Assembly (NCBI RefSeq): GCF_028613635.1
Contig: NZ_JAQRMY010000005.1
Coordinates: 1 to 64,000 of the forward strand
Direction of reading: 5' to 3'
DNA: 64,000 nucleotides
Source of the DNA: Devosia sp. ZB163
GTDB lineage: Bacteria; Pseudomonadota; Alphaproteobacteria; Rhizobiales; Devosiaceae
Shown here piece by piece: positions 32,860 to 54,985 of the stretch (position 1 is its first letter; every line of letters starts with the position of its first letter). Under the pieces are notes generated by a model. It worked only from the letters and a program-made list of their open reading frames with translations, did not search any database and was not told the origin of the DNA. The translations under genes and the position numbers were made by a program.

Positions 32860-33176
32860 TTCTCACTCCCCCGGCGCAGGCTTCGCGCCCCTGGTTGAAG
32901 TTTGCCCGATGCAGCCTCGATTCAGCAACGACAGTACCGGCATCGATCACCCTGCGCCGCGTTTTTGCACAGCCCCAAGCAGGATAGACGCCTGATAAAG
33001 ATTATAATAGCATACCATTATAAGAAGCGGACCAAGTCCGCACGGAGGATGCTTCGCTGAGGGGCGAGGCGGAGGGCTCGATATCGATCGTCGGGACACG
33101 TGACTGCGCCGTCGGCGGCTCTGCGCCACCGGACGACGGGGACGACTTGGCGCAAGTGGGCATTGGGAGGGAACAC
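32860..33176. promoter_or_regulatory. Divergent control region of the NIPSNAP and ABC importer genes
   Basis: A gap of 317 bases with no gene. It holds the operator at 32998-33011 and a second partial copy ATTATAAG at 33017-33024, so two half-sites on one DNA face are possible. The rest is GC-rich with nothing recognised. gggagg at 33166-33171 is the ribosome-binding site of the binding protein gene. Confidence 0.6.
32998..33011 (+). promoter_or_regulatory. Putative GntR-regulator operator, site 1
   Basis: AAGATTATAATAGC, 11 of 14 matches to the palindrome GCTATTATAATAGC found at four other promoters of the island. It contains TATAAT readable on both strands, so bound protein would block the -10 region. 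A partial second copy follows at 33017-33024. Confidence 0.6.
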
Positions 33177-33977
33177 ATGCCGAATAGATTGAAGCTGGTC
33201 TTGTCCGGGCTTGCAGTGGCGCTGGTCGCCATGCTGCCGGCCGCCGCCTCGGCGCAGACCGTCGACGAGATCATTGCGCGCGGCAAGCTGATCATCGCCG
33301 TAGATACCACCACGCCGCCCTATGGCTTCCTCGATGCCGACCTGAAGCCGACCGGTTTCGACATCGAGGTCGCGACGAAGATGGGCGAGGCCCTGAGCGT
33401 GCCGGTCGAGTTCGTCACCGTGACCTCGCCAGGCCGCATTCCGGCGCTTCTGACCAAGCAGGTCGATGCCGTTGTGTCGATCTTCTCGATCACCCCGGCG
33501 CGCGCCATCCAGATCGACTACTCGATCCCCTATGCCGGCCAGTCTGCCGTGCTGATCGCGCCCAAGAGCACCACGATCGCGAGCCATGCCGACCTCGTCG
33601 GCAAGAAGGTCGGCCTCACCCGCGGCACCGCCGAGGACGGCATCCTGACCGCCGCGGCCGAAGCCAACCCGGGCATCGAGATCCTGCGCTTCGACGACTA
33701 TGCCTCGCTGCTGCAGGCGATGGTCTCGGGCCAGATCGACGCCATGGGCGGCGGCGACTACGGCGAGATCTACCTCAAGAAGGCGCAGAACGGCGACGAC
33801 TTCGAGCAGAAGTACAAGCTCAAGACCTTCTACTTCGGCATCGGCGTCGCCAAGGGCAACGACAACCTGCGCCAGTGGATCAACACCTGGCTGTTCACGC
33901 TCAAGTCCGACGGCGTGCTCGAGGACCTGTCGATGAAGTATCGCAACCAGCCGTTGCCGACCCTGCCGGTCTTCTGA
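33177..33977 (+). CDS. ABC transporter substrate-binding protein, amino-acid type
   Basis: A 266-residue periplasmic binding protein of family 3 (SBP_bac_3). The signal peptide runs to about residue 24 (LAVALVAMLPAAASAQ). The mature start TVDEIIARGKLIIAVDTTTP and PYGFLDADLKPTGFDIEVA are typical. The domain 2 blocks VGKKVGLTRGTAEDGIL and RQWINTWLFTLKSDGVLEDL follow. ATG 33177 is used for gggagg upstream and the signal peptide. It forms an operon with two permease genes. The ligand may be an amino acid or an organic acid; control by the island's GntR operator hints at a compound of that pathway. Confidence 0.9.
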   Translation: MPNRLKLVLSGLAVALVAMLPAAASAQTVDEIIARGKLIIAVDTTTPPYGFLDADLKPTGFDIEVATKMGEALSVPVEFVTVTSPGRIPALLTKQVDAVVSIFSITPARAIQIDYSIPYAGQSAVLIAPKSTTIASHADLVGKKVGLTRGTAEDGILTAAAEANPGIEILRFDDYASLLQAMVSGQIDAMGGGDYGEIYLKKAQNGDDFEQKYKLKTFYFGIGVAKGNDNLRQWINTWLFTLKSDGVLEDLSMKYRNQPLPTLPVF

Positions 33978-34003
33978 TCGCGCGAACGATCCTGCCTTCG
34001 CGG

Positions 34004-34027
34004 GCGGGGCCATCATCGGCCCCGCCA
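34004..34027 (+). promoter_or_regulatory. Intercistronic stem-loop after the binding-protein gene
   Basis: GGCGGGGCC and GGCCCCGCC form a perfect 9-base-pair stem with loop ATCATC. There is no T tract. Such hairpins between binding-protein and permease genes commonly protect the upstream mRNA and raise binding-protein yield. Confidence 0.6.
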
Positions 34028-34053
34028 CCTTCACTGTTTTCGACAGGACGCGC

Positions 34054-34719
34054 ATGCAAACGGCCCTGCAGTTCGGACCGGTCCTCATTCATCTCGACCA
34101 ACTGCTCTATGGTGTCGGGCAGACGATCCAGCTCGCGGTGCTGTCGATCCTGTTCGGCACTATCATCGGCGTGCTCGGTGCGATCGGCCGCAGCTTCGGC
34201 CCGCGCTGGGTGTCGTGGCCGATCGCCGCCTATGTCGAGCTGATCCGCAACACGCCGCTGCTGATCCAGCTCTACTTCGTCTTCTTCTCGCTGCCGATGT
34301 TCGGGCTGAAGCTCTCGAGCGGCAGCGCCGCCATCCTCGCGCTCTCGATCCATCTCGGCGCCTATGCCACCGAGATTCTTCGCGCCGGTGTCGAGTCGGT
34401 GCCGGTGGGCCAGATCGAGGCGGCGAAGTCCCTTGGTCTCACCAGCTACCGCATCATCCGCCATGTCGTGCTGGTGCCGGCGGTGCGGGCCGTCTACCCG
34501 GCGCTGTCGGCGCAGTTCATCCTGCAGTTGATGGGGACCTCGATCGTCGGCGCCATCGCCGCGGAGGAGCTCACTGCCATTGCCAACAACCTGGTGATGG
34601 AGACGTTCCGCAGCTTCGAGGTCTATATCGTCATCGCGGTGATCTACTTCGTGCTGGTCCAATCCGCGAGCCTGATCCTCGCGGGCCTCGGGCGCCTCTT
34701 GTTCCGTTGGAGGACGTGA
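34054..34719 (+). CDS. ABC transporter permease, amino-acid type (HisMQ family), subunit 1
   Basis: A 221-residue inner-membrane permease with about five hydrophobic helices. The N-terminal QLLYGVGQTIQLAVLSILFG and LIRNTPLLIQLYFVFFSLPM are HisMQ features. The coupling loop AGVESVPVGQIEAAKSLGLT (EAA motif) contacts the ATPase. It pairs with the next gene to form the channel. No ATPase gene follows, so the subunit must come from elsewhere. Confidence 0.9.
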   Translation: MQTALQFGPVLIHLDQLLYGVGQTIQLAVLSILFGTIIGVLGAIGRSFGPRWVSWPIAAYVELIRNTPLLIQLYFVFFSLPMFGLKLSSGSAAILALSIHLGAYATEILRAGVESVPVGQIEAAKSLGLTSYRIIRHVVLVPAVRAVYPALSAQFILQLMGTSIVGAIAAEELTAIANNLVMETFRSFEVYIVIAVIYFVLVQSASLILAGLGRLLFRWRT

Positions 34720-34720
34720 G

Positions 34721-35410
34721 ATGAGCCTCCGCGACTTCGGCCCCAACGAGCTGATGTTCCTGATCATGGCGACGCGCTGGACGATCCTGCTCGCGCTCAT
34801 CGCCTTCGCCGGCGGCGGGGTGATCGGGCTGATCGTCGCTGCTTTGCGCGTCGCGCCGCTGTTGCCGCTGCGGGGGCTGGCCGCCGGCTACATCCAGTTC
34901 TTCATGGGCACGCCGATCCTGATCCAGCTGTTCATGGCCTACTACGGCTCATCGCTGCTCGGCTTCCGTCCCGACCCCTGGGTGGCGGCGGCAGTGACCT
35001 TCTCGCTCAATGGCGGTGCCTTCTTCGGCGAGATCTTCCGTGGCTCGATCGATGCGGTGCCGAAGGGGCAGTGGGAGGCTTCGACCGCGCTCGGCTTCCG
35101 GTTCCTGCCGACGCTGCGACTGGTGATCCTGCCGCAGGCCGTGCGGCTGATGCTGCCGCCGACGGTCGGCTTCATGGTGCAGATCGTGAAGACCACGTCC
35201 GTCGCGTCGCTGATCGGCCTTACCGAGCTGGCGCGGGCTGCGACGCAAGTGAACACCGTCACCTTCCAGCCGGTGCTGGTGTTCGGCACGGTATCGCTGA
35301 TCTACTTCATGCTCTGCTGGCCGCTGTCGCTCTATGCCGGCTACCTCGAGCGCCGGGTCGGCGGGGGGCTGCAGGTGAGGACGAAGAAGCCGCTCTTGAT
35401 GGCGAGCTGA
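34721..35410 (+). CDS. ABC transporter permease, amino-acid type (HisMQ family), subunit 2
   Basis: A 229-residue partner permease starting 1 base after the previous stop. TRWTILLALIAFAGGGVIGL and FMGTPILIQLFMAYYGSSLL cover the first helices, and the EAA loop reads IDAVPKGQWEASTALGFRFL. The C-terminus after SLYAGYLERRVGG is cytoplasmic. It ends the operon at the strong hairpin 35427-35459. Confidence 0.9.
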   Translation: MSLRDFGPNELMFLIMATRWTILLALIAFAGGGVIGLIVAALRVAPLLPLRGLAAGYIQFFMGTPILIQLFMAYYGSSLLGFRPDPWVAAAVTFSLNGGAFFGEIFRGSIDAVPKGQWEASTALGFRFLPTLRLVILPQAVRLMLPPTVGFMVQIVKTTSVASLIGLTELARAATQVNTVTFQPVLVFGTVSLIYFMLCWPLSLYAGYLERRVGGGLQVRTKKPLLMAS

Positions 35411-35426
35411 GGACACCGGCGGTACA

Positions 35427-35459
35427 GTGATCCTCCCCCGTTCTACGGGGGAGGATCAC
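35427..35459. terminator. Bidirectional hairpin terminator
   Basis: GTGATCCTCCCCCGT pairs perfectly with ACGGGGGAGGATCAC over 15 base pairs with a three-base loop, between two convergent operons. There is no T tract on either side, so it may act as an mRNA 3' protector as well. Confidence 0.7.
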
Positions 35460-35481
35460 GGAGAGTCGGGTGGGTGACCCC

Positions 35482-36360
35482 TCACCCCACGAACGCCGGC
35501 AGCGCCAACCCCTTCGCCCCCACATCGATGGCGAACAGCCCGCCCGGGTTGCTCTGGCCCTTGAAGTGCTCAGCCGGTCGCTTCAGCACGGCGGTGGTGA
35601 CGTAGAGGATGTCGAGGTTCTCGCCGCCGAACTCGCAGCAGGTCGGGAGGTCCGTCGGCAGGACGATCGACTGCATCAGCTTGCCCTCGGGGTCGTACCG
35701 GTTGACCTTGCTGGTGACCGGGACGGTGACCCAGTAGCAGCCATCCGCATCCACCGTCGCGCCGTCGGCGATGCCGCCGCTGCCGTCGAGGTCGATGAAG
35801 GTGCGCTGGTTCTCGATGTCGCCGGTGACCGGGTCGAAATCGTAGGCGCGGACGATCGTGGTGTGGCTGTCGGAGAAGTACATGGTCTTGCTGTCGGGAC
35901 TCCAGGCGAGTCCGTTGCAGCAGCCGACGCCCTCGATCATCCGGTGCACCGAGAGGTCCTTGTCCATCCTGTAGAGCGAGCCGATGAACTCCACCTGCCT
36001 GCCCGGCGCCTCGAACATCGAGCCCGACCAGAAGCGGCCCTGCCTATCGGGCTTGCCGTCGTTGAAGCGGGTCAGCGGCAGGTGCGCTTCGGGATCGACG
36101 ATCGCCTCGAACGCCCCGGTCCCAGGATCGAAGAAGTAGAACCCCGAGACCATGGTGACGACCAGCCCGCCCCTTTCGCGCAGCCCGATGCAGCCGAGGT
36201 ACTCCGGCGACTCCCAGGTGTCGTCTTTGCCGGTCCTGGGGTCGTAGCGGTGGATCAGCCGGCTCCAGATGTCGATCCACCACAGGACGCCCGCCTTGGG
36301 GTCCCAGATGGTGCCCTCGCCGAGTTCGGCCTTCGCGTCGACGACGCAAGTGATGTCCAT
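35482..36360 (-). CDS. SMP-30/gluconolactonase-family lactonase
   Basis: A 292-residue six-bladed beta-propeller of the SMP-30/regucalcin family, which hydrolyses sugar lactones to aldonic acids using a divalent metal. The metal ligand glutamate is in VDAKAELGEGTIWDPKAG. TRFNDGKPDRQGRFWSGSM gives the conserved asparagine, GVGCCNGLAWSPDSKTMYFS the second asparagine, and GGIADGATVDADGCYW the aspartate. Last gene of the sugar ABC operon, 3 bases after the permease stop. This suggests the imported sugar is oxidised to a lactone. Confidence 0.9.
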   Translation of the reverse strand: MDITCVVDAKAELGEGTIWDPKAGVLWWIDIWSRLIHRYDPRTGKDDTWESPEYLGCIGLRERGGLVVTMVSGFYFFDPGTGAFEAIVDPEAHLPLTRFNDGKPDRQGRFWSGSMFEAPGRQVEFIGSLYRMDKDLSVHRMIEGVGCCNGLAWSPDSKTMYFSDSHTTIVRAYDFDPVTGDIENQRTFIDLDGSGGIADGATVDADGCYWVTVPVTSKVNRYDPEGKLMQSIVLPTDLPTCCEFGGENLDILYVTTAVLKRPAEHFKGQSNPGGLFAIDVGAKGLALPAFVG

Positions 36361-36363
36361 GCT

Positions 36364-37206
36364 CTACCCCTTGACTGCCCCGGCACTGAGCCCGGTGACG
36401 ATGTACCGCTGGATCAGCAGGTAGAAGATCACCGGGAAGATGGAAAAGAAGGTCGCCGCTGCCAGCACCCGGTCGATCGGTGTGTCCAGCATCACCTTGA
36501 GCGATGCCAGACCCACCGCCACCGGCCGGCTGTCAGGAGACGTGACCAGTGTGACCGCGAAAAGGTACTCGTTCCACGCGTAGAAGAAGGCAACCACGCT
36601 GACGGCAACCAGCCCGGGCGCGGACAGCGGAAGCAGCGTCCGGATCAGCGCCCCGAGCGGCGAGCAGCCGTCGATCAGCGCGGCCTCGTAGATTTCCTCC
36701 GCGATGGAATCGAAGGAGTTCTTCAGCACCCAGATGCAGATCGGCAGGATGAACGCCGCGTCCACCAGCGACAGGGCGGGCAGGCTGTCCGACAGGCCGA
36801 GGTTGCGATACATCGCGTAGACCGGAATGACGACGAGGGCCTCCGGCAGCATCTGCGTCATCAGCAGCAGCAACCCGAAGGCAGGCTTGCCGCGCCATTT
36901 CAGGAAGGTCATGGCGAACGAGCCCAGCACTGCCAGCGCCAGCACGATCAGCGTGGTCATCCCCGCCAGCAGCAGCGAGTTCACCAGCCACCGCGCCACC
37001 GGGTAGCTGTCGAACAGCGTCGTGAACGGCAGCAAGCTGATCTCCTTGGGGAACAGCGGCGGCGGAAACTGCATGCCGTGCGCCAGCGGCTGGATCGAGT
37101 TCACGATCATCCAGTAGACCGGGAACAGCACCACGGCGCAGAAGCCGATGATGAGGACGTAGAACACTACGCCCGCGCCGAACCGGCGAAGCTTGTAGGC
37201 CGTCAT
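36364..37206 (-). CDS. Sugar ABC transporter permease, MalG type
   Basis: A 280-residue inner-membrane permease. The first helix is GAGVVFYVLIIGFCAVVLFP followed by VYWMIVNSIQP. The EAA loop reads EEIYEAALIDGCSPLGALIR, typical of CUT1 permeases, and RYIVTGLSAGAVKG is the characteristic C-terminus. ATG 37206 has gaggaggag just upstream and sits 2 bases from the MalF-type stop. The longer open frame upstream is only the antisense/alternate frame of that gene. Confidence 0.92.
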   Translation of the reverse strand: MTAYKLRRFGAGVVFYVLIIGFCAVVLFPVYWMIVNSIQPLAHGMQFPPPLFPKEISLLPFTTLFDSYPVARWLVNSLLLAGMTTLIVLALAVLGSFAMTFLKWRGKPAFGLLLLMTQMLPEALVVIPVYAMYRNLGLSDSLPALSLVDAAFILPICIWVLKNSFDSIAEEIYEAALIDGCSPLGALIRTLLPLSAPGLVAVSVVAFFYAWNEYLFAVTLVTSPDSRPVAVGLASLKVMLDTPIDRVLAAATFFSIFPVIFYLLIQRYIVTGLSAGAVKG

Positions 37207-37208
37207 GC

Positions 37209-38150
37209 TCAGCTCCTCCTCGCGCGGTCCTGCCGCTGTTGGGCGTAGACAAACAGCAGGGTGAGGCCGAGCACGATCACGAACCCCGCGACGCCCAGGG
37301 TCGCGCCATAGGCCAGGTCGAAAAACCGGAATGCCGTCTGGTAGATGCGCAGCACCAGTGTTTCGGTGATGCCGCCATAGGGGCCGCCGCCCGTCGTCAG
37401 CCAGATCAGCGTGAACTGCTTGAACGAGAAGATCGACATCAGCACCGCCATGAGCAGCAGTGTCGGAGTGATCTCGGGGATGGTGATGTGCCGCAGCATC
37501 TGAAGCCGGTTGGCGCCGTCGACTTCCGCCGCCTCGTAGACTTCCCGCGGAATGGCCTGCAGCGCCGCAAGGATGACGAGGAAGGTGAAGGGGAACGCCT
37601 TCCAGATCGACAGGATGATGACCAGCGGCATCGCCAGCTTGGGGTCGGACAGCCAGTTCAGGTTCTGCTCGATGCCGGGGAACAGGCGCGCGAAGACGTT
37701 CATCACCCCGAACGTCGGGTTGCACATCCAGATGAAGACCAGCACGGCCGAAATCTCGGGAAAGGCCCAGGGCACCGCGATGGCGCTCCGCGCCACGTTG
37801 CGGCCGCGGAACTTGCGGTTCAGCAACAGCGCCGAGAGCAGCCCGAGCGACACGGCTCCCACGACCACGAAGGCCATGTAGGTCAGGGTGACCTGGAGGG
37901 CGAACCAGAAGTCCTCATCCTCCATCAGGCGTTCGTAGTTGCGCAGCCCCACCCAGGTGACGTTGTCGACACCCACGACGTTGTTCGAAAAGCTCGTCAG
38001 GAACTGCTGGGCGATCGGAAACAGGATGAACACGCCCAGATAGGCGACGATCAGGAAAACCAGGGTATAGGCGAGCGAGTTCTGCCGCCTCCGCCACGGC
38101 CGCCGCGTGAAGGTCACGCGGTCTTGCTCTGCCACTTCTGACTGCAACAT
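37209..38150 (-). CDS. Sugar ABC transporter permease, MalF type
   Basis: A 313-residue CUT1 permease. NSLAYTLVFLIVAYLGVFIL begins helix 1. The EAA loop is PREVYEAAEVDGANRLQMLR, and FKQFTLIWLTTGGGPYGGIT is the conserved late-membrane segment. It works with the MalG-type protein and the binding protein of this operon. No ATPase gene is in the operon. Confidence 0.92.
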   Translation of the reverse strand: MLQSEVAEQDRVTFTRRPWRRRQNSLAYTLVFLIVAYLGVFILFPIAQQFLTSFSNNVVGVDNVTWVGLRNYERLMEDEDFWFALQVTLTYMAFVVVGAVSLGLLSALLLNRKFRGRNVARSAIAVPWAFPEISAVLVFIWMCNPTFGVMNVFARLFPGIEQNLNWLSDPKLAMPLVIILSIWKAFPFTFLVILAALQAIPREVYEAAEVDGANRLQMLRHITIPEITPTLLLMAVLMSIFSFKQFTLIWLTTGGGPYGGITETLVLRIYQTAFRFFDLAYGATLGVAGFVIVLGLTLLFVYAQQRQDRARRS

Positions 38151-38213
38151 TCGCTAGACATTCCTGTACGCCGAAAGATGGGCGACGACCGCTGCAGGCT
38201 CCCCTGCCGCGCC

Positions 38214-38248
38214 GTTCGCCCCAGGATCAGGCATGATCGGGGGCGAAC
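38214..38248 (-). promoter_or_regulatory. Intercistronic stem-loop after the sugar-binding-protein gene
   Basis: GTTCGCCCC (38214-38222) pairs with GGGGCGAAC (38240-38248), with inner GATCA/TGATC pairing. It lies between the binding-protein gene and the permease genes on the minus strand and probably limits downstream expression or protects the binding-protein mRNA. Confidence 0.6.
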
Positions 38249-38282
38249 CATTGGAACGCCCCCGACAAGCTCAGTTGATCCG

Positions 38283-39605
38283 CTACAGGGTGAAGCCGTC
38301 GAACAACCGTTCGGACGCCCTCTCCAGGTTCTGCTGGGCGTCGGCCATGGCGTCCTCGACCGGCCGGTCTGCGACCAGCACTTCCGAGAACTTGTCCATG
38401 ACGATGTTGCCGAACTCCTGGTTGAAGAAGATGTAGTCGCCCATGATTTCGAGCGGCGTGATCGCTTCACCCTTGAGGTAGCCATCGGCCCAGAACTGCT
38501 GGTCGAGATATTCCTTGCGGATCGCCTCGGGGTAGGGCGGCACCACGTCGAGGCACCGCTCCATCAGTTCCTGGTAGTTCTCAGGCTTGTAGAGCCACTC
38601 GACGAAGCTCTTGGCAGCTGCCTTCTCGTCGTCCGAGGCGTGGGCGTTCACGCAGATCGGATGGATGCGGGTGATTGCCTTGGCGCTCGGCCCGGGCGGC
38701 ACGACGCTGCGCAGCGACTTGTAGATATCCGGCCCGGTGGTGGACCAGATGTTGACCGCGGCGGACACGATCAGCTGCTGCGCGATGCGGCCATTGGCAT
38801 ACATCTGGTTGGCAGTCGCTATGTCGGTGCCCTTCGGCATCCCGTTGTCGTACATCTTCTTGAACAGCTTCAGGCCTTCGATCACCGGCTCGCTGTTGAC
38901 CAGCGGGGTGCGTCCCTCGGCCCACTTGCCGTCGAACATCACCGCCCACTGCTGCAGGATGAACCAGAAATCGCCCGGCTCACTCATCAGGTGGGGCGAG
39001 TAGATGCCGAACTGGTCCGGCGCCTTGGTCAGCGCGGTGGTGGTCTGCACCCATTCCTCGACCGAGCTCGGGGCCCCGACGCCGGCCTTGTCGAACAGCT
39101 CCGAGTTGTAGAGCAGGCCGAACTTCACGGTGACGATGTCCAGCCCGTGCACCTTGCCGTCGACCCGCAGGTGGTCATGGGCGGCGCTCAGCTTGTCGCC
39201 GATCCCGAGCTTGTCGACGATGTCCTGCAGCGGTTCGAGGTGTCCGCCGCGCAGCAGCCGCACCACCAGGTCGGGGGTGGTGTGGAACAGCGCGCCATTG
39301 ACCTTTCCGGACTGGGACTGGATCAGCATGTTGTTGTTGAATTCGTTGAACGGCGCGCCGGCTTCCTCGACGAAGACGTCGCTCTGCTCGGCGTGGAATT
39401 TCGCCAGCATCGCCCGCCAGGCGTCGCCACGTCCCGGTTCGTTCCACATCCACGAGACCAGCGGAATCCTGATCTTGGCATTCTGGGCGATCGCCGGCGT
39501 CGCCAGCGCCGCGGCGAACCCCGCCGCTGCGGTCCGCTTCAGGAAGTCACGTCGCCCCATGCTCATCGAGCGTGGGAGCAATAGGCCGTTGCCTGGTCTA
39601 TTCAT
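38283..39605 (-). CDS. Tat-exported sugar-binding protein of a CUT1 ABC transporter
   Basis: A 440-residue solute-binding protein of family 1. The N-terminus has a twin-arginine signal, MGRRDFLKRTAAAGFAAAL, with cleavage near ATPAIAQ. The mature part starts KIRIPLVSWMWNEPGRGDAW; WAEGRTPLVNSEPVIEGLKL and AKSFVEWLYKPENYQELMER are typical of CUT1 binding proteins. ATG 39605 is chosen for aggaggaac just upstream, which leaves 15 residues before the twin arginines. It is the first gene of the sugar ABC-lactonase operon. Its upstream region carries both a LacI-type and a GntR-type site. Confidence 0.92.
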   Translation of the reverse strand: MNRPGNGLLLPRSMSMGRRDFLKRTAAAGFAAALATPAIAQNAKIRIPLVSWMWNEPGRGDAWRAMLAKFHAEQSDVFVEEAGAPFNEFNNNMLIQSQSGKVNGALFHTTPDLVVRLLRGGHLEPLQDIVDKLGIGDKLSAAHDHLRVDGKVHGLDIVTVKFGLLYNSELFDKAGVGAPSSVEEWVQTTTALTKAPDQFGIYSPHLMSEPGDFWFILQQWAVMFDGKWAEGRTPLVNSEPVIEGLKLFKKMYDNGMPKGTDIATANQMYANGRIAQQLIVSAAVNIWSTTGPDIYKSLRSVVPPGPSAKAITRIHPICVNAHASDDEKAAAKSFVEWLYKPENYQELMERCLDVVPPYPEAIRKEYLDQQFWADGYLKGEAITPLEIMGDYIFFNQEFGNIVMDKFSEVLVADRPVEDAMADAQQNLERASERLFDGFTL

Positions 39606-39673
39606 GCTGGTTCCTCCTCATGGAATCCGGCGCGACGGTCATTCGCCGTCTTGCGCGCGAGTCCCTGCCATGT

Positions 39674-39687
39674 TGATACCGGTACCA
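39674..39687 (-). promoter_or_regulatory. Putative LacI-regulator operator, site 1
   Basis: Reads TGATACCGGTACCA on the plus strand, so TGGTACCGGTATCA on the minus strand, exactly the 14-mer at 47383-47396. A CG-centred palindrome of this kind is typical of LacI-family targets. It lies 69 bases upstream of the sugar-binding-protein start. Confidence 0.65.
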
Positions 39688-39825
39688 GTTGCCCCTAGGC
39701 TTGGCGGCAGCGTTGGCGGCCGACAATAGAAGCGATATGTCCTGGCTTCCCCTCGTGACGCGGCAGCTCCTCAACTGCCGCGCTCCGGTCGAACGACCGT
39801 AACCAAGTCGTCCTACAGCTATGAT

Positions 39826-39839
39826 GCTATTATAATTCT
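39826..39839 (-). promoter_or_regulatory. Putative GntR-regulator operator, site 2
   Basis: GCTATTATAATTCT, 11 of 14 matches to GCTATTATAATAGC, with another GCTATGAT half directly beside it at 39818-39825. Between the sugar ABC operon and the end of the GntR gene, about 220 bases upstream of the binding-protein start. Confidence 0.55.
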
Positions 39840-39890
39840 ACAAAGCTGTCCATGCCGATGCTGGCCGGGACGCAGGACTTTCGACGGGGA

Positions 39891-40679
39891 TCAGACGAGG
39901 TCGTTCGGCGCGTCGTAAGTGATCGAGAACATGTCGGCCGGATGCCGGGCGATCGAGAACTCGATATTGCGCTGGTCGGAGGACTGATAGAGCATCTCGA
40001 CAGCGAGGATTGCCGATCCTTTGGCCACGCCCAGGTCGGATGCAACCTCGTCGTCCGCGATTTCTGCGCGCACCGTGCAATGCGCCACGGCCATGCGGAT
40101 GTTGAGCCGGCGCTGCACCGCGCGGAAGATCAGCACGTCGTTGAAGTCTTCCTTCTTCAGTTGCGCGCCGAGGTCGGGCGGGAAGTAGGTGGTGATCTGC
40201 GCCTTCTTCTGCTTGCCCACCACCAGCATGCTGCGGAGGCAATAGCCCTGCTCGTCCTTGTTGAGGCCGAAGTGGCGCTGCAGCAGCGGCGAGACTTCCT
40301 TCTTGTAGGACTTGATCTTCAGCGACGCGTCCTTGGTGAAGGCCGCCATGTCGGCAAAATTCTTGAACGTCCAGCTCAGCGTCACCGGCGGCGCCGCCGA
40401 GGTGACCACGGCAGGCTTTGCCGACCGCTTCTTGATCAGCCCGTCCGCCTCCAGATCGCGCAGTGCCTGGCGCACGGTGATGAGGCTCACCCCGAACCGT
40501 TCGGCGATCATCGCTTCCTTGGGCAACTCGCCGCCGACCGGAAATGCACCCGAAGTGATCGGCTCGCGGAGAATATCCGCGAGCTGCCGATAGAGCGGGC
40601 CCTGGGCCCGCGCCAGCGTGCGCTTCGGCAGCAAATCAATCGTCGAGTTCAGGTCGTCCATGTATTCAGCCAGCCCCAT
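39891..40679 (-). CDS. GntR-family transcription regulator with UTRA ligand domain (HutC subfamily)
   Basis: About 262 residues. The N-terminal winged helix runs PLYRQLADILREPITSGAFP, ELPKEAMIAERFGVSLITVR, QALRDLEADGLIKK, the usual GntR recognition region. The rest is a UTRA ligand-binding fold ending with AVEMLYQSSDQRNIEFSIAR and HPADMFSITYD. ATG 40679 is used since an operator-like palindrome lies 8 bases upstream and would overlap any longer version; an ATG at 40661 is possible. It probably senses a pathway intermediate and represses the operons carrying the five related palindromes, including its own. Confidence 0.88.
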   Translation of the reverse strand: MGLAEYMDDLNSTIDLLPKRTLARAQGPLYRQLADILREPITSGAFPVGGELPKEAMIAERFGVSLITVRQALRDLEADGLIKKRSAKPAVVTSAAPPVTLSWTFKNFADMAAFTKDASLKIKSYKKEVSPLLQRHFGLNKDEQGYCLRSMLVVGKQKKAQITTYFPPDLGAQLKKEDFNDVLIFRAVQRRLNIRMAVAHCTVRAEIADDEVASDLGVAKGSAILAVEMLYQSSDQRNIEFSIARHPADMFSITYDAPNDLV

Positions 40680-40686
40680 AGGTGTG

Positions 40687-40700
40687 GCTATGATAATAGC
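40687..40700 (-). promoter_or_regulatory. Putative GntR-regulator operator, site 3 (autoregulation)
   Basis: GCTATGATAATAGC has both 5-base arms GCTAT/ATAGC of the palindrome and differs at one central base from GCTATTATAATAGC. It sits immediately upstream of the GntR gene itself, the usual place for autorepression. Confidence 0.65.
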
Positions 40701-40789
40701 ACGATCTACAGCTCGGGAACGGCCCCGTTCAGCTCGTCCCCGCCTAAGTGGGTGGTAACCCACCGTGTCACTCGGCCATCCAATGAGGG

Positions 40790-40900: not shown

Positions 40901-40935
40901 CGCAAACCTATGCCCATCACCGACATTGTGAGCAC

Positions 40936-41622
40936 TCACGCCAGCAACCGCAGCGGCAGCTCCAGGTACGCCTTGAACCGCGTCAGGAACTCGGTCGCTG
41001 CATCCTCGCTGACCTCTGCCGCGTCGAACGACAGCAGGCATTCGCCTGTCGCCGGTCCAGCGGCCAGCACCAGCCGCATGCTGCGTCCCGGCTTCAGCGG
41101 CATCATCACCGGGCGGATGTCGGTGGCCGCGAGCAGCTTCAGCGACAGTGTCGCGGGCTCGGCCGACTGGTCGCCGCCGGCTTCGATCGCTGCCAGCCGC
41201 CGCGCCCGGAGCGGGCCGAGCGAGCCCTTGCGGATATCGGCGAATACCAGTTGCCCGGCCTTCTGCTCCAGCGCCACCGGCGCCCCGGCGAGGCTGCCGG
41301 TCTCGGGCACATCGTCGAGCGCACACCCGGCGGCGCGCAGCACTACGTCCTCGAGCGTGAACGGCGTATCGGCATCGGCGAAGCCGGCCAGCAGCTGCAG
41401 CAGCGTCGCCAGCTGGATGGTGGTGCCAAGCGCCGACGCCTGCGGTCCGCTCACCGCAGCCGGGGCAGGGGGGCGGGCCACATGTGCCGGGATATCCGCC
41501 GCGACGATGCGGCCGTTCGGGCCGGTGCCCTTCAGCACCTCCAGCGACAGGCCACGCTCGCGCGCCAGCCGGCGGGCATAGGGCGAAATGGCGCGGCGGG
41601 TCTGGAGTGCGGTGGCGGTCAT
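40936..41622 (-). CDS. E2-like protein with E3-binding domain and degenerate acyltransferase domain
   Basis: A 228-residue protein. Residues of about 10-45 are a peripheral subunit-binding domain (ISPYARRLARERGLSLEVLK, then GTGPNGRIVAADI). The rest aligns loosely with the 2-oxoacid dehydrogenase acyltransferase core, but is about 80 residues short. Its terminal motif is DAAEVSED (residues 200-207) in place of the catalytic DHRxxDG. There is no lipoyl domain; one is fused to the E1 gene instead. It may only hold E3 or organise the complex. It overlaps the dehydrogenase stop by ATGA. Confidence 0.75.
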   Translation of the reverse strand: MTATALQTRRAISPYARRLARERGLSLEVLKGTGPNGRIVAADIPAHVARPPAPAAVSGPQASALGTTIQLATLLQLLAGFADADTPFTLEDVVLRAAGCALDDVPETGSLAGAPVALEQKAGQLVFADIRKGSLGPLRARRLAAIEAGGDQSAEPATLSLKLLAATDIRPVMMPLKPGRSMRLVLAAGPATGECLLSFDAAEVSEDAATEFLTRFKAYLELPLRLLA

Positions 41623-42635
41623 CAGCGCTTCAGGTATTCGCGGTTGACGCAGTTGGTCAGCCGGCCCTCGGCGAGGTAGGCATGCACCACCTCGATCGAT
41701 TTGAGCCGCAGGTCGACCATCGAGGCGGGGCTGTAGAACGCCGCGTGCGGGGTGACGATCAGCCGGTTCTTGATCCAGTCCTCGCCGGCACGCCACGCCT
41801 TGATCAGCGGATGCTCGAGATCGCCCGGCTCGTTCGGCAGCACGTCGAGCCCGGCACCGACCACGGTGCCCTTCTGCATCGCGGCTTCCAGCGCCGACAC
41901 ATCGATGATCGGACCGCGCGCCGTGTTGACGACGATCAGCCCCGGCTTTGCCGCGGCAAATGCCTCGGCCCCGAGCAATCCGCGCGTCTCGTTGCTGAGC
42001 GGCGCATGCACCGACACCACGTCGGCTCGAGACATCAGCTCGTTGAGCGAGTGCACGCGTTCATAGCCGGTGGAGAGATCGACACCGGAGAGCAGGTGCG
42101 GGTCGTAAAACACCACCTTCATGTCGAAGGCGGCGGCGCGCCGTGCCGCGGCGAGTCCGATGCGGCCGAGACCGACAATGCCGAACGTGGCGTTCTTGTG
42201 CCGCCGGATCAGCGGCGCCTGGTTGAAATGCCAGTTCTCGGCGCCGCCCGCGACGAGCGTGTTCGGATAGGTGTAGCTCCCCCGCGTCAGCGCCAGCATC
42301 AGCGCGATCGCATGGTCGGCAACTTCCGTCGTGCCGTAGTCGGGCACGTTGCAGGCCGGGATGTTGCGCGCGCCCCAGCCGACGGTGTCGATATTGTCGA
42401 AGCCCACGCCGGAACGCACCGCGATCCGCGCATTGGGGAACGCAGTGGGCGGCAACGGCACGTTGTGGGCGGGGGAATAGTTGATCACCGCATCGACAGT
42501 CTTTGCGGTCTCCGCATCCAGCGTCGCCGCCGTGTCGTTGGTGGAGCGGGCGAGGATCAGCTCGATATCCGGATAGTGCTTGCGCTCCAGTTCGGCCTCG
42601 TCCGCCGCCTGCCAGTTGACGCAGTAGATCTTCAT
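41622..42635 (-). CDS. D-2-hydroxyacid dehydrogenase (NAD-dependent)
   Basis: A 337-residue protein of the D-isomer-specific 2-hydroxyacid dehydrogenase family, closest in look to the CtBP-like branch. IAVRSGVGFDNIDTVGW is the substrate-side motif. The NAD-binding loop is GIVGLGRIGLAAARRAA. NTARGPIIDVSAL carries the catalytic arginine region, LDVLPNEPGDLEHPL the glutamate, and VTPHAAFYSPASM the histidine. ATG 42635 has gggaggaac directly upstream. It would interconvert a 2-hydroxy acid with a 2-oxo acid, probably the substrate of the neighbouring E1 protein. Confidence 0.88.
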   Translation of the reverse strand: MKIYCVNWQAADEAELERKHYPDIELILARSTNDTAATLDAETAKTVDAVINYSPAHNVPLPPTAFPNARIAVRSGVGFDNIDTVGWGARNIPACNVPDYGTTEVADHAIALMLALTRGSYTYPNTLVAGGAENWHFNQAPLIRRHKNATFGIVGLGRIGLAAARRAAAFDMKVVFYDPHLLSGVDLSTGYERVHSLNELMSRADVVSVHAPLSNETRGLLGAEAFAAAKPGLIVVNTARGPIIDVSALEAAMQKGTVVGAGLDVLPNEPGDLEHPLIKAWRAGEDWIKNRLIVTPHAAFYSPASMVDLRLKSIEVVHAYLAEGRLTNCVNREYLKR

Positions 42636-42667
42636 CGTTCCTCCCGCTGCCTGCCGGCAGTCTCGAT

Positions 42668-45064: not shown

Positions 45065-45125
45065 AGCAAGCCTCCCTGCGCCGTCCCGATTCCGGGTCCA
45101 GTTTGCGCGCCATCCACGGAAAGAA

Positions 45126-45139
45126 TAGATTATAATAGC
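45126..45139 (+). promoter_or_regulatory. Putative GntR-regulator operator, site 4
   Basis: TAGATTATAATAGC, 11 of 14 matches to GCTATTATAATAGC, again with TATAAT on both strands. It is in the divergent gap between the E1 operon (minus, start 45064) and the aldolase gene (plus, start 45217) and could control both. Confidence 0.65.
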
Positions 45140-45142
45140 ATA

Positions 45143-45220
45143 ATGTCTAGGCGGAAAGTTCCTGTCGCCGAAGCCCGCCGCAGCGGCTACGAAAGTGCCG
45201 ACAGGGAGGATTTTCCATGA
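45143..45220 (+). CDS. Possible 25-codon leader peptide overlapping the aldolase start
   Basis: An open frame starting ATG at 45143 with peptide MSRRKVPVAEARRSGYESAD and a stop that forms ATGA with the aldolase start. It begins 4 bases after the operator, so it could lie inside the transcript leader or be untranslated chance. It could couple translation. No ribosome-binding site precedes it. Confidence 0.25.
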   Translation: MSRRKVPVAEARRSGYESADREDFP

Positions 45221-45975
45221 GTTTGCCGCCGCTTCGCACGCGCCTCAAGAACGGTGCGCCATTGCTGGCGCCGTTCTCGATCATCCCGTCGATCGAAGTG
45301 GTCGAGTTGATCGCGCTCGCCGACTATGACGGCGTGATCCTCGACCTCGAGCATGGCGCGCATGGCAGCGAGGCGCTCGGCCCGCTGATCCTCGCGGCGA
45401 TGGCGCGCGGCATCTACCCGCTGGTCCGGGTGCGCAGCAGCGAGCCCACCGAGATCGGCGCCGCGCTCGATGCCGGTGCCGCCGGAGTGATCGTGCCGCA
45501 GATCGGCTCCGTCGCCGAAGCCGAGCGTGCCGTGCGGGCGGCTCGCTTCGCTCCCGAGGGCAATCGCGGCGCCAACTCCTTCGTCCGCGGTGCCGACTAT
45601 TCAGGCCGCGCCGAATGGTTCGCCGAGGCCAACCGCGATGTCGCCGTGCTGCTGATGGTCGAAGGCGCCGGCGGGGTCGCGGCGCTGCCGGAAATCCTGA
45701 AGCTCCGGACCCTCGACGGCATCTTCCTCGGTCCGCTCGACCTATCGCACGCGCTCGGCGTGCCGGGCGAGATGAGCCATCCCAGGGTGGTCGAGACCAT
45801 CGAGGGCGTGATCGATGCCTGCAAGACGGCCGGGGTCACCACCGGCATTTTCGCCGGCACCAGCGAGGCAGCGCGCCGCTGGATCGGGCGTGGCGTGACG
45901 CTGGTCGGCGCAGGCGTTGATACCGCCCTCATCCTCAAGGGACTGAAGGCGGCAATGGCCGAGATCCGCGGCTAG
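45217..45975 (+). CDS. HpcH/HpaI-family class II aldolase
   Basis: A 252-residue metal-dependent pyruvate-type aldolase, splitting 2-oxo-3-deoxy or 4-hydroxy-2-oxo acids into pyruvate and an aldehyde. VILDLEHGAHG has the base histidine; YPLVRVRSS the substrate arginine; LLMVEGAGGVAALPEI the metal glutamate; GIFLGPLDLSHALG the metal aspartate and phosphate-like loop. ATG 45217 has gggaggat upstream. It probably acts after one of the two dehydratases of the island. Confidence 0.9.
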   Translation: MSLPPLRTRLKNGAPLLAPFSIIPSIEVVELIALADYDGVILDLEHGAHGSEALGPLILAAMARGIYPLVRVRSSEPTEIGAALDAGAAGVIVPQIGSVAEAERAVRAARFAPEGNRGANSFVRGADYSGRAEWFAEANRDVAVLLMVEGAGGVAALPEILKLRTLDGIFLGPLDLSHALGVPGEMSHPRVVETIEGVIDACKTAGVTTGIFAGTSEAARRWIGRGVTLVGAGVDTALILKGLKAAMAEIRG

Positions 45976-45980
45976 GCCCG

Positions 45981-46110: not shown

Positions 46111-46119
46111 ACGCGGTGC

Positions 46120-47340: not shown

Positions 47341-47382
47341 GGAATTCCATCCCCCATTCGCATGCCCGTTGACAGTCATTTA

Positions 47383-47396
47383 TGGTACCGGTATCA
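47383..47396 (+). promoter_or_regulatory. Putative LacI-regulator operator, site 2
   Basis: TGGTACCGGTATCA, identical to the reverse complement of 39674-39687. Just upstream, TTGACA at 47369-47374 could be the -35 element for the plus-strand SDR operon, so a bound repressor would cover its -10 region. Confidence 0.7.
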
Positions 47397-47430
47397 GTCG
47401 CGTCAAGATGTCCGGGGGGAGGACGCCATC

Positions 47431-48228: not shown

Positions 48229-48232
48229 CCCG

Positions 48233-50064: not shown

Positions 50065-50094
50065 CCCCACCCGCGATGTCATTCCCAGTGGGGA

Positions 50095-50204
50095 GACGAT
50101 GCTATCGCCTCCCTCCCCCTTGAGGGGAGGGATTGAGGGAGGGGGCGGTCCGGTGATCACCGATGGACCCCCACCCCCGCCCCTCCCCTCAAGGGGGAGG
50201 GGAG
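50095..50204. repeat. GC-rich palindromic intergenic repeat, family A copy 2
   Basis: Nearly identical to 40790-40900, with the same inverted arms TCCCTCCCCCTTGAGGGGAG / CTCCCCTCAAGGGGGAGGGG and the same gatcaccgatggaccccca core. It separates the transketolase gene from the dehydratase gene in the same direction. Confidence 0.8.
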
Positions 50205-50263
50205 CAGAGAGCTTTCGCTGGGATGACATCGAGTGGGTGGAGAACGTTGGGGGAGGACAGCCC

Positions 50264-51448: not shown

Positions 51449-51463
51449 AGCGTTTCGAACCTA

Positions 51464-51573
51464 CTGCCCCTCACCCCGACCCTCTCCCCAGCGGGGAGAG
51501 GGGGCGATGTGGCACTGCCCGTGCAAAGTGCGTCCCCTCTCCCCGCTGGGGAGAGGGTCAGGGTGAGGGGCAG
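51464..51573. repeat. GC-rich palindromic intergenic repeat, family C
   Basis: CTGCCCCTCACCCCGACCCT continuing through ctccccagcggggag is mirrored by ctccccgctggggag through AGGGTCAGGGTGAGGGGCAG. It forms one long hairpin between the convergent dehydratase and LacI genes, with a short central region around gtggcactgcccgtgc. Confidence 0.75.
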
Positions 51574-51581
51574 TCCCGCAC

Positions 51582-52616
51582 CTAGGCACTCTCGCGATCC
51601 ACGATCTCGAACCCCAGGCTGGTGATGGTCGCCAGCTTCTGCTTGCCGCCGAGGCGGTCGAGAAGCTGACGCACCGCGCGGCGGCCCATCTCGTAGCGGT
51701 TGACCTTTACCGTGGTCAGCGGCGGGTAGAGCTGTGCCGCGAGGTCGACGTCGCCGTAGCCGGCGATCGCGATCCGGCCGGGGATGGCCCAGCCGCGGCG
51801 GTGGCACTCCTGCACGGCGCCGATTGCGAGCGTGTCGGATGAAAAGAAGATCGCGTCGATATCCTTGTGGCGCTCGGTCAGCGTCGCCAGTGCCTCTGCA
51901 CCGCCGGCGGCGGTGATGGGTACTTCCACTTCCATCGAGGCGTGGTTCCTGATCCCGAGTTCGGTGAGCGCCGCGTGGTAGCCGGTGCGCCGCTGCTGCA
52001 ACCGGTCGTTGCCGTGGATCGGCGTCGACACGAACCCGATGCGCTTGTAGCCCTTGGCGGCGAGATGCATCGTCATGGCGTAGGCGGTCTCGAAGTTCGA
52101 GACGCCCACCACCATGTCGATGGGCTGCCGGCCCTTGATCTCGGAGATCTCGACCACCGGCGCGCCGCTCGAGACCAGCAGTTGCCGCGCCACCTCGCTC
52201 TGCACGAAGCTCTGGAGGATCATCCCCGCCGGGCGCCAGCCGAGCAGGGTGCGGATCGAGGCTTCTTCGGCTTCGGTGGTGAACTCGCCCTGCACCAGCA
52301 GCATCGAATAGCCGCCCTGGTGACACTCGTCCGACATGCCCTGCACTTGCTCGGCAATGCCCGAGTTGATCAGCGGCGGCACCACGGTGCCGATCATCCG
52401 GCCGTTGCCCTTCATGCTCGAGGCCAACCGGTTGGGCACGAACCCCGCCGCTTCGATGGCTTCGAGCACCTTGGCGCGGGTCGCCGGGGCGACCATGTCG
52501 GGGTTGGAGAGCACGCGCGAAACGGTCATCGGCGCGACGCCGACGCGCTTGGCGATCTCGCGCACTCCCAACCGCTCCAACGGCTTCTTCTCGCCGCCGT
52601 CTTCCGACCTGGCCAT
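51582..52616 (-). CDS. LacI-family transcription regulator
   Basis: A 344-residue repressor-type regulator. The helix-turn-helix is VREIAKRVGVAPMTVSRVLS with hinge helix FVPNRLASSMKGNG. The effector domain has GWRPAGMILQSFVQSE, CHRRGWAIPGRIAIAGYGDV and LTTVKVNRYEMGRRAVRQLL. Its likely targets are the two identical TGGTACCGGTATCA sites. It resembles GntR/gluconate-type LacI proteins. No such site is found at its own promoter. Confidence 0.9.
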   Translation of the reverse strand: MARSEDGGEKKPLERLGVREIAKRVGVAPMTVSRVLSNPDMVAPATRAKVLEAIEAAGFVPNRLASSMKGNGRMIGTVVPPLINSGIAEQVQGMSDECHQGGYSMLLVQGEFTTEAEEASIRTLLGWRPAGMILQSFVQSEVARQLLVSSGAPVVEISEIKGRQPIDMVVGVSNFETAYAMTMHLAAKGYKRIGFVSTPIHGNDRLQQRRTGYHAALTELGIRNHASMEVEVPITAAGGAEALATLTERHKDIDAIFFSSDTLAIGAVQECHRRGWAIPGRIAIAGYGDVDLAAQLYPPLTTVKVNRYEMGRRAVRQLLDRLGGKQKLATITSLGFEIVDRESA

Positions 52617-52713
52617 GCGCTACTCCCGAAAACCGGGCCGAACCATAGTCGCCGCGGGCGCTTCGCGCCAGCATCGGGGGCTCAGGCGACGGCAGGTGCG
52701 TAGCGGCTCCGGC

Positions 52714-53607
52714 CTAGATCCGGAACGGCTCGAAGCGAAGCGTCCCTTCCGTGCTCTCGCCCGGCGCCAGCACGATCACGCCATCCTCCGCATCCCCGAA
52801 CCCTTCCGGCCGGTTGAATGCTCCCGAGGCATTGGTCTGCGGTTCGACGCAGAATACGTTGAGCGCCGGATCGGCGTAGAACATGACGTGCCTGTAGGGC
52901 GCGTCGCCCTTCATGGTGATGCCCGCACCGCGGCTGGGGAAGCTCACCGTGGCGCTGCCGTCCCAGCCGCCGTAGTCGCTGCAGCGCCAGTATCTGGGCA
53001 GCGGCTGCGTGGTGTCGAACGATACGTCCGGCGGCAGGGTGATGCGCTGGCCGATCATCCCTTCGGGCTCGTTGAGGTGGAAGGTTCGGGCCCGGAACTG
53101 CACGGTGGTATCCGCATCCCGGTCGAACCAGGGATGATGGCCGAAGCCGAAGGGCATGGTGCGTTCGCCGGTGTTGGTCACCCGCGTCACCAGTTCGAGC
53201 CCGGCATCGGTGAGCGTGAAGCGCTGCTCGGCGCGATAGGAGTAGGAGGAGGGATCGGCCACCTCCAGTGACAGCACCGCGCTTGCCTTGCCGGCCTGTT
53301 CGGCAGTCCACGGCCGGTGCCAGGCGGTGCCGTGCACGTGGTAGATCTCGGGCGGGTTGTTCGCCGCGAACTCGTAGCGCTGCCCCTCGAACTCGAAGGC
53401 ATTGCCGCCGATCCGGTTGGCGAAGGGGATCATCGGGAACGACGCGACGCCCAGCACATTGCCGGCTTTGCGGCTGGCATCCGAGAGCGGCCGCATCACG
53501 TCGATGCCGTCGATCTGGAAGCGCGCGATACTGCCGCCGATCGCCGGCGCCAGATCCACCGCGAGGCGGCCGGCACGCAGTTCGAGATGTTCAGAAACTG
53601 CGGCCAT
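52714..53607 (-). CDS. Aldose 1-epimerase (galactose mutarotase family)
   Basis: A 297-residue beta-sandwich epimerase speeding interconversion of sugar anomers. FPMIPFANRIGGNAFEFEG carries the conserved arginine, HVHGTAWHRPWTAEQA the first histidine, FGFGHHPWFDRDADTTVQFR the second histidine, and NVFCVEPQTNASGAFN the glutamate. ATG 53607 overlaps the end of the SDR-like gene. Supports a free sugar as the starting substrate. Confidence 0.88.
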   Translation of the reverse strand: MAAVSEHLELRAGRLAVDLAPAIGGSIARFQIDGIDVMRPLSDASRKAGNVLGVASFPMIPFANRIGGNAFEFEGQRYEFAANNPPEIYHVHGTAWHRPWTAEQAGKASAVLSLEVADPSSYSYRAEQRFTLTDAGLELVTRVTNTGERTMPFGFGHHPWFDRDADTTVQFRARTFHLNEPEGMIGQRITLPPDVSFDTTQPLPRYWRCSDYGGWDGSATVSFPSRGAGITMKGDAPYRHVMFYADPALNVFCVEPQTNASGAFNRPEGFGDAEDGVIVLAPGESTEGTLRFEPFRI

Positions 53608-54163
53608 AGCCGGCACTCCATCCGCCGTCGACCGACAGCATTTGCCCAGTGGTGTAGGTGTTGAGCGGGTCGCAGAAGAACAGCACCGTGTCCGTGACTT
53701 CGGCCACGGCACCCGGCCGCTTCACCGAGGCATGCCCGAGCATCGCCGCATCGCCCGCGACCAGTGGCTCGCCGACGGCGCCGACGCCAATCGCGTTCAC
53801 CAGCACCTTCGGCCCCAACTGCATGGCCATGGTGCGAACGGTTGCCAGCACGCCGGCCATCGCCACCGAGTATTCCGGATGGCGCCGCATCGGCATTCCC
53901 GCCGCGGCCGAGACGAGGAACAGGATGCGTCCGTTGCCGCGTGCGAACATGGCCTCACCGGTCGCACGTGCAGCCTGCATTTGCGGCGTCGGATCGTATC
54001 CGCCGACCGGCAGCAGCGGCATAGACACGATCAGGATATCGGGCAGCGATGCGGCGGCGTCGACCGTCGCGCCGTTGGCTTGCAGCGCCTCGAGTGCGGC
54101 CGTCGCGACCGGGTTCTGCTCCCCGCGCAACTCGACGAGTGTGTTCTGGAGTTCGATCCGCAT
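53591..54163 (-). CDS. Degenerate SDR-like protein (probably not a dehydrogenase)
   Basis: A 190-residue protein recognisable as SDR-like only in its second half: LVNAIGVGAVGEPLVAGDAA, AEVTDTVLFFCDPLNTYTTG and MLSVDGGWSAGYG. The nucleotide loop TGxxxGxG is missing; the N-terminal region reads TLVELRGEQNPVATAALEA. The active-site block is PEYSVAMAGVL, with Tyr98 kept but the lysine replaced by Met102. So cofactor binding and catalysis are doubtful. It starts 8 bases after the next SDR gene, in the same operon. Confidence 0.75.
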   Translation of the reverse strand: MRIELQNTLVELRGEQNPVATAALEALQANGATVDAAASLPDILIVSMPLLPVGGYDPTPQMQAARATGEAMFARGNGRILFLVSAAAGMPMRRHPEYSVAMAGVLATVRTMAMQLGPKVLVNAIGVGAVGEPLVAGDAAMLGHASVKRPGAVAEVTDTVLFFCDPLNTYTTGQMLSVDGGWSAGYGRSF

Positions 54164-54171
54164 GGCACGCC

Positions 54172-54951
54172 TCACATCATGTAGCCGGCGGTCCAGCCGC
54201 CATCGACGGCCAGAACCTGGCCGTTGATGTAGCCGGCGCCGGAGGAACTGAGGAACAGCACAGCCTCGGCGATTTCCTCGGGCGTGCCGGGGCGTCCCAG
54301 CGGCAGGTGCTGCATGAACTCGGCGGTGCGTCCGGCGAACTTGCCGTCGGCGCCGTAGAACAGCGAGCGCGTGCCCTCGGTCATGATCGAGCCCGGCGCG
54401 ATGGCGTTGGTGAGGATGCCCTGCGGGCCCAGTTCCAGTGCCATCGAGCGGGTCATGTGGATGATGCCGGCCTTGGCCGCGACGAACGGGCTCTGGAGCC
54501 GCATCGCCGCGAGCCCCACGACCGAGGCGATGTTGATGATCCGCCCGCCTTCGCCCTGCTTCACCATGGGCTGGAGCGCGGCGTGGCTCATCAGGTAGAG
54601 CCCGTCGAGATCTATGCGGGTGATGCGCTCCCACTCCTCGAGCGGGAAGGCGTCGATGTTCACCCGGTGGACGAAGCTGTTGACCCCGGCATTGTTGACG
54701 AGGATGTCGATCCGGCCGTAGCGGGCGATGGTCTCGGCGACGCCGGCCTCGGCGGAGTCGCGGCTGGAGATGTCGATCACTGCCGCCATGGCGCCGGGGA
54801 GGGTGGCCGCGTAGGCCTCGGCGCCCTCGCGGTTGATGTCCGCGATCACGACGCTGGCGCCATTGTCGCTCAGCCGCCGGGCGATGGCGCGGCCGATCGC
54901 TCCTGCGGCGCCGGTGACCAGGGCCACCCGCCCGTTCAAATCAACCTGCAT
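54172..54951 (-). CDS. SDR-family protein lacking the catalytic tyrosine
   Basis: A 259-residue short-chain dehydrogenase fold. The cofactor loop RVALVTGAAGAIGRAIARRL, IDILVNNAGVNSF and the serine in RIINIASVVGL are normal. The active-site block is SPFVAAKAGIIHMTR, so the usual tyrosine is Phe156 while Lys160 remains. SSGAGYINGQVLAVDGGW ends the fold. First gene of the minus-strand operon with the degenerate SDR and the epimerase; site 5 of the GntR operators precedes it. Confidence 0.82.
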   Translation of the reverse strand: MQVDLNGRVALVTGAAGAIGRAIARRLSDNGASVVIADINREGAEAYAATLPGAMAAVIDISSRDSAEAGVAETIARYGRIDILVNNAGVNSFVHRVNIDAFPLEEWERITRIDLDGLYLMSHAALQPMVKQGEGGRIINIASVVGLAAMRLQSPFVAAKAGIIHMTRSMALELGPQGILTNAIAPGSIMTEGTRSLFYGADGKFAGRTAEFMQHLPLGRPGTPEEIAEAVLFLSSSGAGYINGQVLAVDGGWTAGYMM

Positions 54952-54971
54952 GTCGGTGACCCTCCTGACAT

Positions 54972-54985
54972 GCTATTATAATAGG
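54972..54985 (-). promoter_or_regulatory. Putative GntR-regulator operator, site 5
   Basis: GCTATTATAATAGG, 13 of 14 matches to the palindrome, the best copy of the five. It lies 21 bases upstream of the SDR start, so the transcript leader would be very short. Confidence 0.68.

Follow-up and report, generated by a model that had tools for sequence, protein, structure and literature searches.

The catabolic island of Devosia sp. ZB163 that lies in the first 64,000 nucleotides of contig NZ_JAQRMY010000005.1 (assembly GCF_028613635.1; this whole stretch is called the window below) raises the question of which protein controls its import and enzyme genes, and through which DNA sites. Our analysis points to the GntR/UTRA protein encoded within the island (GntR below), which is very probably a local, autoregulated repressor acting at five predicted operators, sites A to E (Table 1). 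Direct binding, repression rather than activation, and an inducer are what we infer from sequence patterns, and on this footing an uncharacterised catabolic island gains a concrete predicted regulator, operator and target list.

Five predicted operators

A sequence-only reading of the window had described five copies of a palindromic 14-mer, at 32998, 39826, 40687, 45126 and 54972, all intergenic and without further copies in the window. Our scan bore this out, since no other 14-mer was found in the window at up to three mismatches, the chance expectation was 0.33, none of 100 shuffles reached five copies (largest, three) and gene calls placed all five sites between genes. Compared with GCTATTATAATAGC, two of the 14-mers differ by one base and three by three bases. 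The sites are therefore real, but their description as a symmetric 14-mer hides one near-invariant half-site and one weak half, and the TATAAT said to occur on both strands does so at four sites but not at 40687, which reads ATGATAATAG. A sharper description is the asymmetric 13-mer ATTATAATAGCAT, which joins one near-perfect half of ATGCTATTATAATAGCAT to a weak half; when the sites are read as the 18-bp palindrome ATGCTATTATAATAGCAT, every site agrees with the right half at 8-9 of 9 bases and with the left half at only 4-7 of 9. The 13-mer is exact at 33001 (+), 39824 (-), 45129 (+) and 54970 (-), and the copy before the GntR gene, at 40690 (+), has two mismatches.

We found that the 13-mer is confined to the island. 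About 0.002 exact copies are expected in the 4.59 Mb genome under a dinucleotide model and four were observed, all of them in the island, with no further exact or one-mismatch copy anywhere in the genome; the many unrelated matches that the sequence-only reading had named as a warning sign were thus not seen. At up to two mismatches the whole genome holds eight matches, namely the five sites, one overlapping opposite-strand match at 54972 and two elsewhere, while a reversed-pattern control gave two. We considered further targets elsewhere in the genome and rejected them, because both outlying matches fall inside open frames, one recognised by eye, without a family search, as aminotransferase-like and the other a putatively coding frame of 1.4 kb. 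The operons that the sites were proposed to link (amino-acid-type importer, sugar ABC-lactonase, E1/E2-like, aldolase and SDR-epimerase, SDR standing for short-chain dehydrogenase/reductase) fit the positions of the sites.

The adjacent regulator and its co-occurrence with the operator

The GntR protein carries an N-terminal GntR winged helix-turn-helix (HTH; PF00392, E 1.8e-15, 56.8 bits against a cut-off of 27) and a C-terminal UTRA domain (PF07702, E 2e-18, 67 bits against a cut-off of 23.8). Its most likely start is the ATG at 40661, because the orthologue in genome G014 has a TAG directly upstream of that ATG. As is usual for HutC-type regulators, the gene stands next to its presumed targets and has a site in its own promoter. 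Of the 26 genomes with an orthologue, 22 have a 13-mer with no more than two mismatches in the roughly 260 bp upstream of GntR, which fits the autoregulation suggested earlier from the site before the gene; in many non-Devosia genomes this upstream site is common to a divergent SDR gene.

The exact 13-mer is present in every one of these 26 genomes (46-100% identity to GntR; union of two samples). In the close sample, drawn from the nearest 101 genomes, 12 have GntR (our own, 10 other Devosia and G074 of another family), and the exact 13-mer occurs in all 11 besides our own, while none of the eight GntR-negative Devosia have it, even at one mismatch. In an order-wide draw of 397 genomes, where GntR was scored at E 1e-40 or better (n = 16), the exact 13-mer was found in 16/16 positive versus 10/381 negative genomes, the latter being eight small genomes of one family and two singletons. 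The 15 other GntR-positive genomes of this draw hold 33 exact copies, 25 of which are found either 26-101 bp or 4.2-4.5 kb away from GntR. The remaining eight lie at 8-21 kb and include every exact copy present in G381 (20.7 kb) and G311 (11.0 kb), two genomes that carry one-mismatch copies before E1. In a phylum-wide draw of 398 genomes, only two others matched GntR at 1e-25, both in the same class, and plasmid records held no GntR homologue at 1e-40.

The E1 enzyme gene follows the regulator closely, being present in 28 of 40 genomes tested: 28 of the 30 with GntR (25 with orthologues, five with distant homologues) and none of the 10 without. The two exceptions, G002 and G003, contain other genes of the operon or a fragment of E1 at contig ends. 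Since GntR and E1 travel together, co-occurrence alone cannot tell regulator from target, and this counts among the points against our reading that are gathered in the next section. The link to GntR therefore also rests on its autoregulatory placement and on the dispensability of the island's other regulator, a LacI-family protein.

That the 13-mer is instead the operator of this LacI-family regulator is a most improbable alternative. The LacI gene lies inside the island and has an orthologue at 65-98% identity in 19 of the 25 GntR-positive genomes tested, but a close orthologue is absent in the other six (G002, G007, G074, G295 and G438, with only a 36% match in G428), and each of these keeps two or three exact 13-mers. 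We therefore rejected LacI as the 13-mer binder, since the sites persist without it. LacI proteins typically recognise CG-centred palindromes, and a separate palindrome of this kind, TGATACCGGTACCA, is exact at 39674 and 47383 with no other exact copy in the genome; it is likely the operator of the LacI regulator, although at one mismatch it is no commoner in the genome than its reversed control. The two copies (39674-39687 and 47383-47396) stand before the sugar-type substrate-binding protein (SBP) gene and by an MR/MLE-SDR divergent pair, and given the first of these the sugar importer may answer to both regulators. Together, the co-occurrence, the dispensability of LacI and the lack of close copies elsewhere make it very likely that the adjacent GntR/UTRA protein is the regulator of the five sites, so that the GntR regulon proposed earlier is well supported, with a correction to its promoter anatomy that is given below.

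Further sites were seen in the relatives. In G012 (L091, 5214-5231) there is a palindrome, ATGTTATTATAGTAACAT, with paired two-mismatch matches in G003, G011, G014 and G015, away from the island copies; common to five Devosia genomes, it is possibly the operator of a related regulator. Another site, TTGACActTATAATAGTATAAT, occurs at L062 8973-8993 (equivalents in L064, L067, L068, L071, L075, L082 and L085); in L062 it heads an importer of a BPD_transp_2 permease, a Peripla_BP_4 protein and an ABC ATPase, and the window has nothing that corresponds to this importer between LacI and the epimerase. A GntR copy of 90% identity (L027, 4004-4753) in a metagenome bin assigned to Burkholderiales may reflect either mislabelling of the bin or transfer.

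Promoter anatomy and proposed mode of action

The sequence-only reading had suggested that the palindrome, through its central TATAAT, may serve as the -10 box of divergent promoters. Taking the consensus spacings of sigma-70 promoters as a yardstick, we found that both ABC importers have a -35-like element (consensus TRGAC) 17 bp before TAGCAT, with TAGACG (32985-32990) and TAGCAT (33008-33013) at site A, and TGGACA (39852-39847) and TAGCAT (39829-39824) at site B. The spacing is fixed across relatives. In 22 B sites from 22 of the 26 GntR-positive genomes, the consensus TGGACA stands at one offset with a mean match to TTGACA of 4.82/6 (next best offset, 2.32), with exceptions such as TCGACT in L098; G003 was left out of this set though it has a B site, and G007, G381 and G311 have no 13-mer at up to two mismatches at the B position. 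In eight A sites, ATAGAC(G) stands at the offset seen for B (mean 3.88; next, 2.62). Because of this fixed 17-bp spacing, the TAGCAT half-site, and not the central TATAAT, is likely the -10 at the importer promoters. We rejected the central TATAAT as a universal -10, since at A and B it sits inside the spacer.

The other sites are arranged differently. At site D, in the E1 direction, TAGACA (45149-45144) is followed after 16 bp by TATTCT (45127-45122), so that the E1 promoter seems to lie across the operator; this TAGACA is unchanged in the eight other Devosia copies listed and reads GAGACA in G074. At site E, the distance from TTGCCA (55001-54996) is 15 bp to TATAAT and 20 bp to TAGCAT downstream, and the same two spacings follow the consensus TTGCCG (GTGACA in L101 and L104) across 17 E sites with up to two mismatches, in eight of which TATAAT reads TATAGT and TAGCAT reads TATCAT. 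Here TATAAT could serve as the -10 of the SDR promoter, with a 15-bp spacer. An operator that doubles as a -10 box is thus retained in altered form, with the half-site probably in that role at A and B and TATAAT a possible -10 only at E, and of the divergent arrangement only the 45126 site, the one site in the window that lies between divergent genes, is left.

Since at A and B a conserved -35-like element and TAGCAT are 17 bp apart, the sites might be no more than strong AT-rich -10 elements of a co-expressed island, conserved for promoter function only. We consider this very improbable, because a -10 box is much shorter and much less strictly conserved than the 13-mer, the geometry of the 13-mer to the -35-like element differs at D and E with no recognised -35 at C, and the 13-mer is absent from the eight Devosia genomes without GntR. 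Another possibility is that GntR acts at these sites as an activator, or bends the DNA for another factor. Some GntR proteins are activators and the weak -35-like elements could need help, but the operator lies over the -10 or over the stretch between -35 and -10, which is the classic position of a repressor, and the regulator's own promoter usually carries a site, as noted above; we regard activation or bending as unlikely.

Under repression, the overlap of operators with promoters being what favours it, a GntR dimer would bind ATGCTATTATAATAGCAT-like operators at five promoters. At the importer promoters the TAGCAT half-site would itself be the -10 box and the AT-rich core would fill the -35/-10 spacer, so that bound repressor and RNA polymerase would exclude each other. 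A sugar-acid-like intermediate might then bind the UTRA domain and release the repressor, and this release would jointly induce the importers, the lactonase, the SDR, the aldolase and the E1/E2-like complex.

Several observations weigh against a GntR repressor acting at the five sites. Sites with one strong half are unusual for a symmetric dimer; at site C the strong half is opposite to the direction of transcription and there is no clear -35, and at site E neither spacing is ideal. Four of the 26 genomes (G381, G327, G341 and G145) have no site at up to two mismatches upstream of GntR, and among six distant homologues of GntR (31-41% identity) no palindrome was found in G567 and G1091. The Fisher p of about 6e-21 for the order-wide draw, calculated without our own genome, overstates independence because the genomes are related, and the AlphaFold model of GntR is poor (predicted local distance difference test score, pLDDT, 55).

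DNA recognition and the predicted target enzymes

Among known regulators, YvoA/NagR of Bacillus subtilis is autoregulated, as predicted for the island GntR, and like it combines a GntR winged HTH with a UTRA domain and has its gene beside its targets. YvoA (PDB 2wv0, 4u0v) is among the nearest solved structures to GntR by sequence (E 2e-9). The two differ in sequence, with SERE, ISRMTVR and the wing GRGTFV in YvoA and KEAM, VSLITVR and the wing AKPAVV in GntR. The operator core of HutC-type regulators is given as GTMTAKAC for most, not all, members, and the recognition-helix Arg at position 38, which contacts G, as a possibly conserved family feature (PMC4494728, available part). In all 26 orthologues position 38 is Leu (SLITVR) where this Arg was expected, a residue that is not a formal subfamily criterion, and the operator ATGCTATTATAATAGCAT lacks the GT-N4-AC core and, unlike the HutC type described in that part of PMC4494728, any GTMTAKAC. 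HutC membership nevertheless stands, because the subfamily is defined by the type of C-terminal domain: GntR is by its domains a HutC-type regulator, and by operator and recognition residue a variant. The Leu and the missing core together suggest a changed mode of DNA reading in a HutC-type protein.

Distant homologues from other orders of the class (L136-L140, 36-41% identity) help to place this change. All five keep Arg at position 38 (SRITVR), and next to GntR in four of them stands a TGTCATGATATCATGACA-like palindrome in place of the 13-mer. As in Devosia, their five genomes also hold the E1-lipoyl gene, and GntR adjoins the SDR-E1 operon in four, with a contig break between them in G617. 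The island GntR is also changed at position 28 (Arg in FadR) and at the wing glycine, and the five share both changes, with Ala or Gly at position 28. Only position 38 therefore tracks the operator, and the Arg-to-Leu change and the operator switch appear to go together, as a correlation; a sixth distant homologue, in G1091 (about 32%), keeps Arg and shows neither palindrome. Of the 25 GntR HTHs of our own genome that are readable at position 38, 19 carry Arg there and two, one of them the island GntR, carry Leu; this count leaves out a repeat of the same protein (L169) and a junk alignment (L167). Homologues at 36-100% identity thus offer a natural series for how GntR proteins change DNA specificity.

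Other family members also have sites that depart from the GT..AC consensus, namely FarR, NagQ and SdhR (HutC-type) and BioR and NanR (FadR-type), but the motifs given for them in the available part of PMC4494728 are direct repeats or other palindromes and none is TGCTATTATAATAGCA. Within the open-access literature, the exact motif strings matched only an unrelated paper on a macaque microRNA, TATTATAATA together with GntR had no match, and we found no earlier description of the motif (RegPrecise and the PMC4494728 supplements lie outside that scope) or of the enzyme set.

Table 1. Predicted operators, regulators and regulated genes in the window
Feature	Coordinates	Strand	Remarks
Site A, predicted operator	32985..33013	+	13-mer 33001-33013; upstream of family-3 SBP ABC importer
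Site B, predicted operator	39824..39852	-	13-mer 39836-39824; upstream of sugar ABC-lactonase operon
Site C, predicted operator	40687..40702	.	just upstream of GntR gene, ~25 bp before likely start codon
Site D, predicted operator	45122..45149	.	13-mer 45129-45141; between divergent E1 operon and HpaI-type aldolase
Site E, predicted operator	54970..55001	-	13-mer 54982-54970; upstream of SDR-epimerase operon
GntR/UTRA (HutC-type) regulator	39894..40661	-	recognition helix SLITVR; start ATG 40661 preferred
Operon A, predicted target	33177..35410	+	SBP_bac_3 and two amino-acid-type permeases
Operon B, predicted target	35482..39605	-	SBP_bac_8/SBP_bac_1, two permeases, SMP-30/gluconolactonase
Operon D1, predicted target	40936..45064	-	fused E1 alpha/beta with C-terminal lipoyl domain, D-2-hydroxyacid dehydrogenase, E2-like protein without HxxxDG
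Gene D2, predicted target	45217..45975	+	HpcH/HpaI-type aldolase
Operon E, predicted target	52714..54951	-	SDR, short SDR-like protein without N-terminal part, aldose 1-epimerase
LacI-family regulator	51582..52616	-	rival candidate binder in the island

The regulator is tied to an odd set of an E1-lipoyl and an E2-like enzyme. The E2-like protein (40936-41622, -) has an E3-binding domain and an E2 core that is shortened but aligns (hhalign probability 97%) with both true E2s of the genome, which has no further PF00198 E2. Its HxxxDG motif is replaced (SFDAAEVSED) and occurs in none of nine aligned rows (the window and eight relatives). As a tentative and somewhat doubtful extension, a HutC subclade with the Arg-to-Leu change on top of the shared position-28 and wing changes may have moved to an AT-rich operator that doubles as a -10, and may control a lipoyl-dependent pathway (E1 fused to a lipoyl domain, E2 partner without the acyltransferase motif) whose acyl group may not reach coenzyme A in the usual way.

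Of the remaining enzymes, the SDR, one MR/MLE protein and the aldolase returned generic names from sequence matches in the PDB. No ABC ATPase gene was recognised in the importer operons (33177-35410 and 35482-39605), and a shared ATPase elsewhere may serve both. The short SDR-like protein (53591-54163, -) matches only the C-terminal part of SDR models, and several relatives also have an SDR stretch at the corresponding place.

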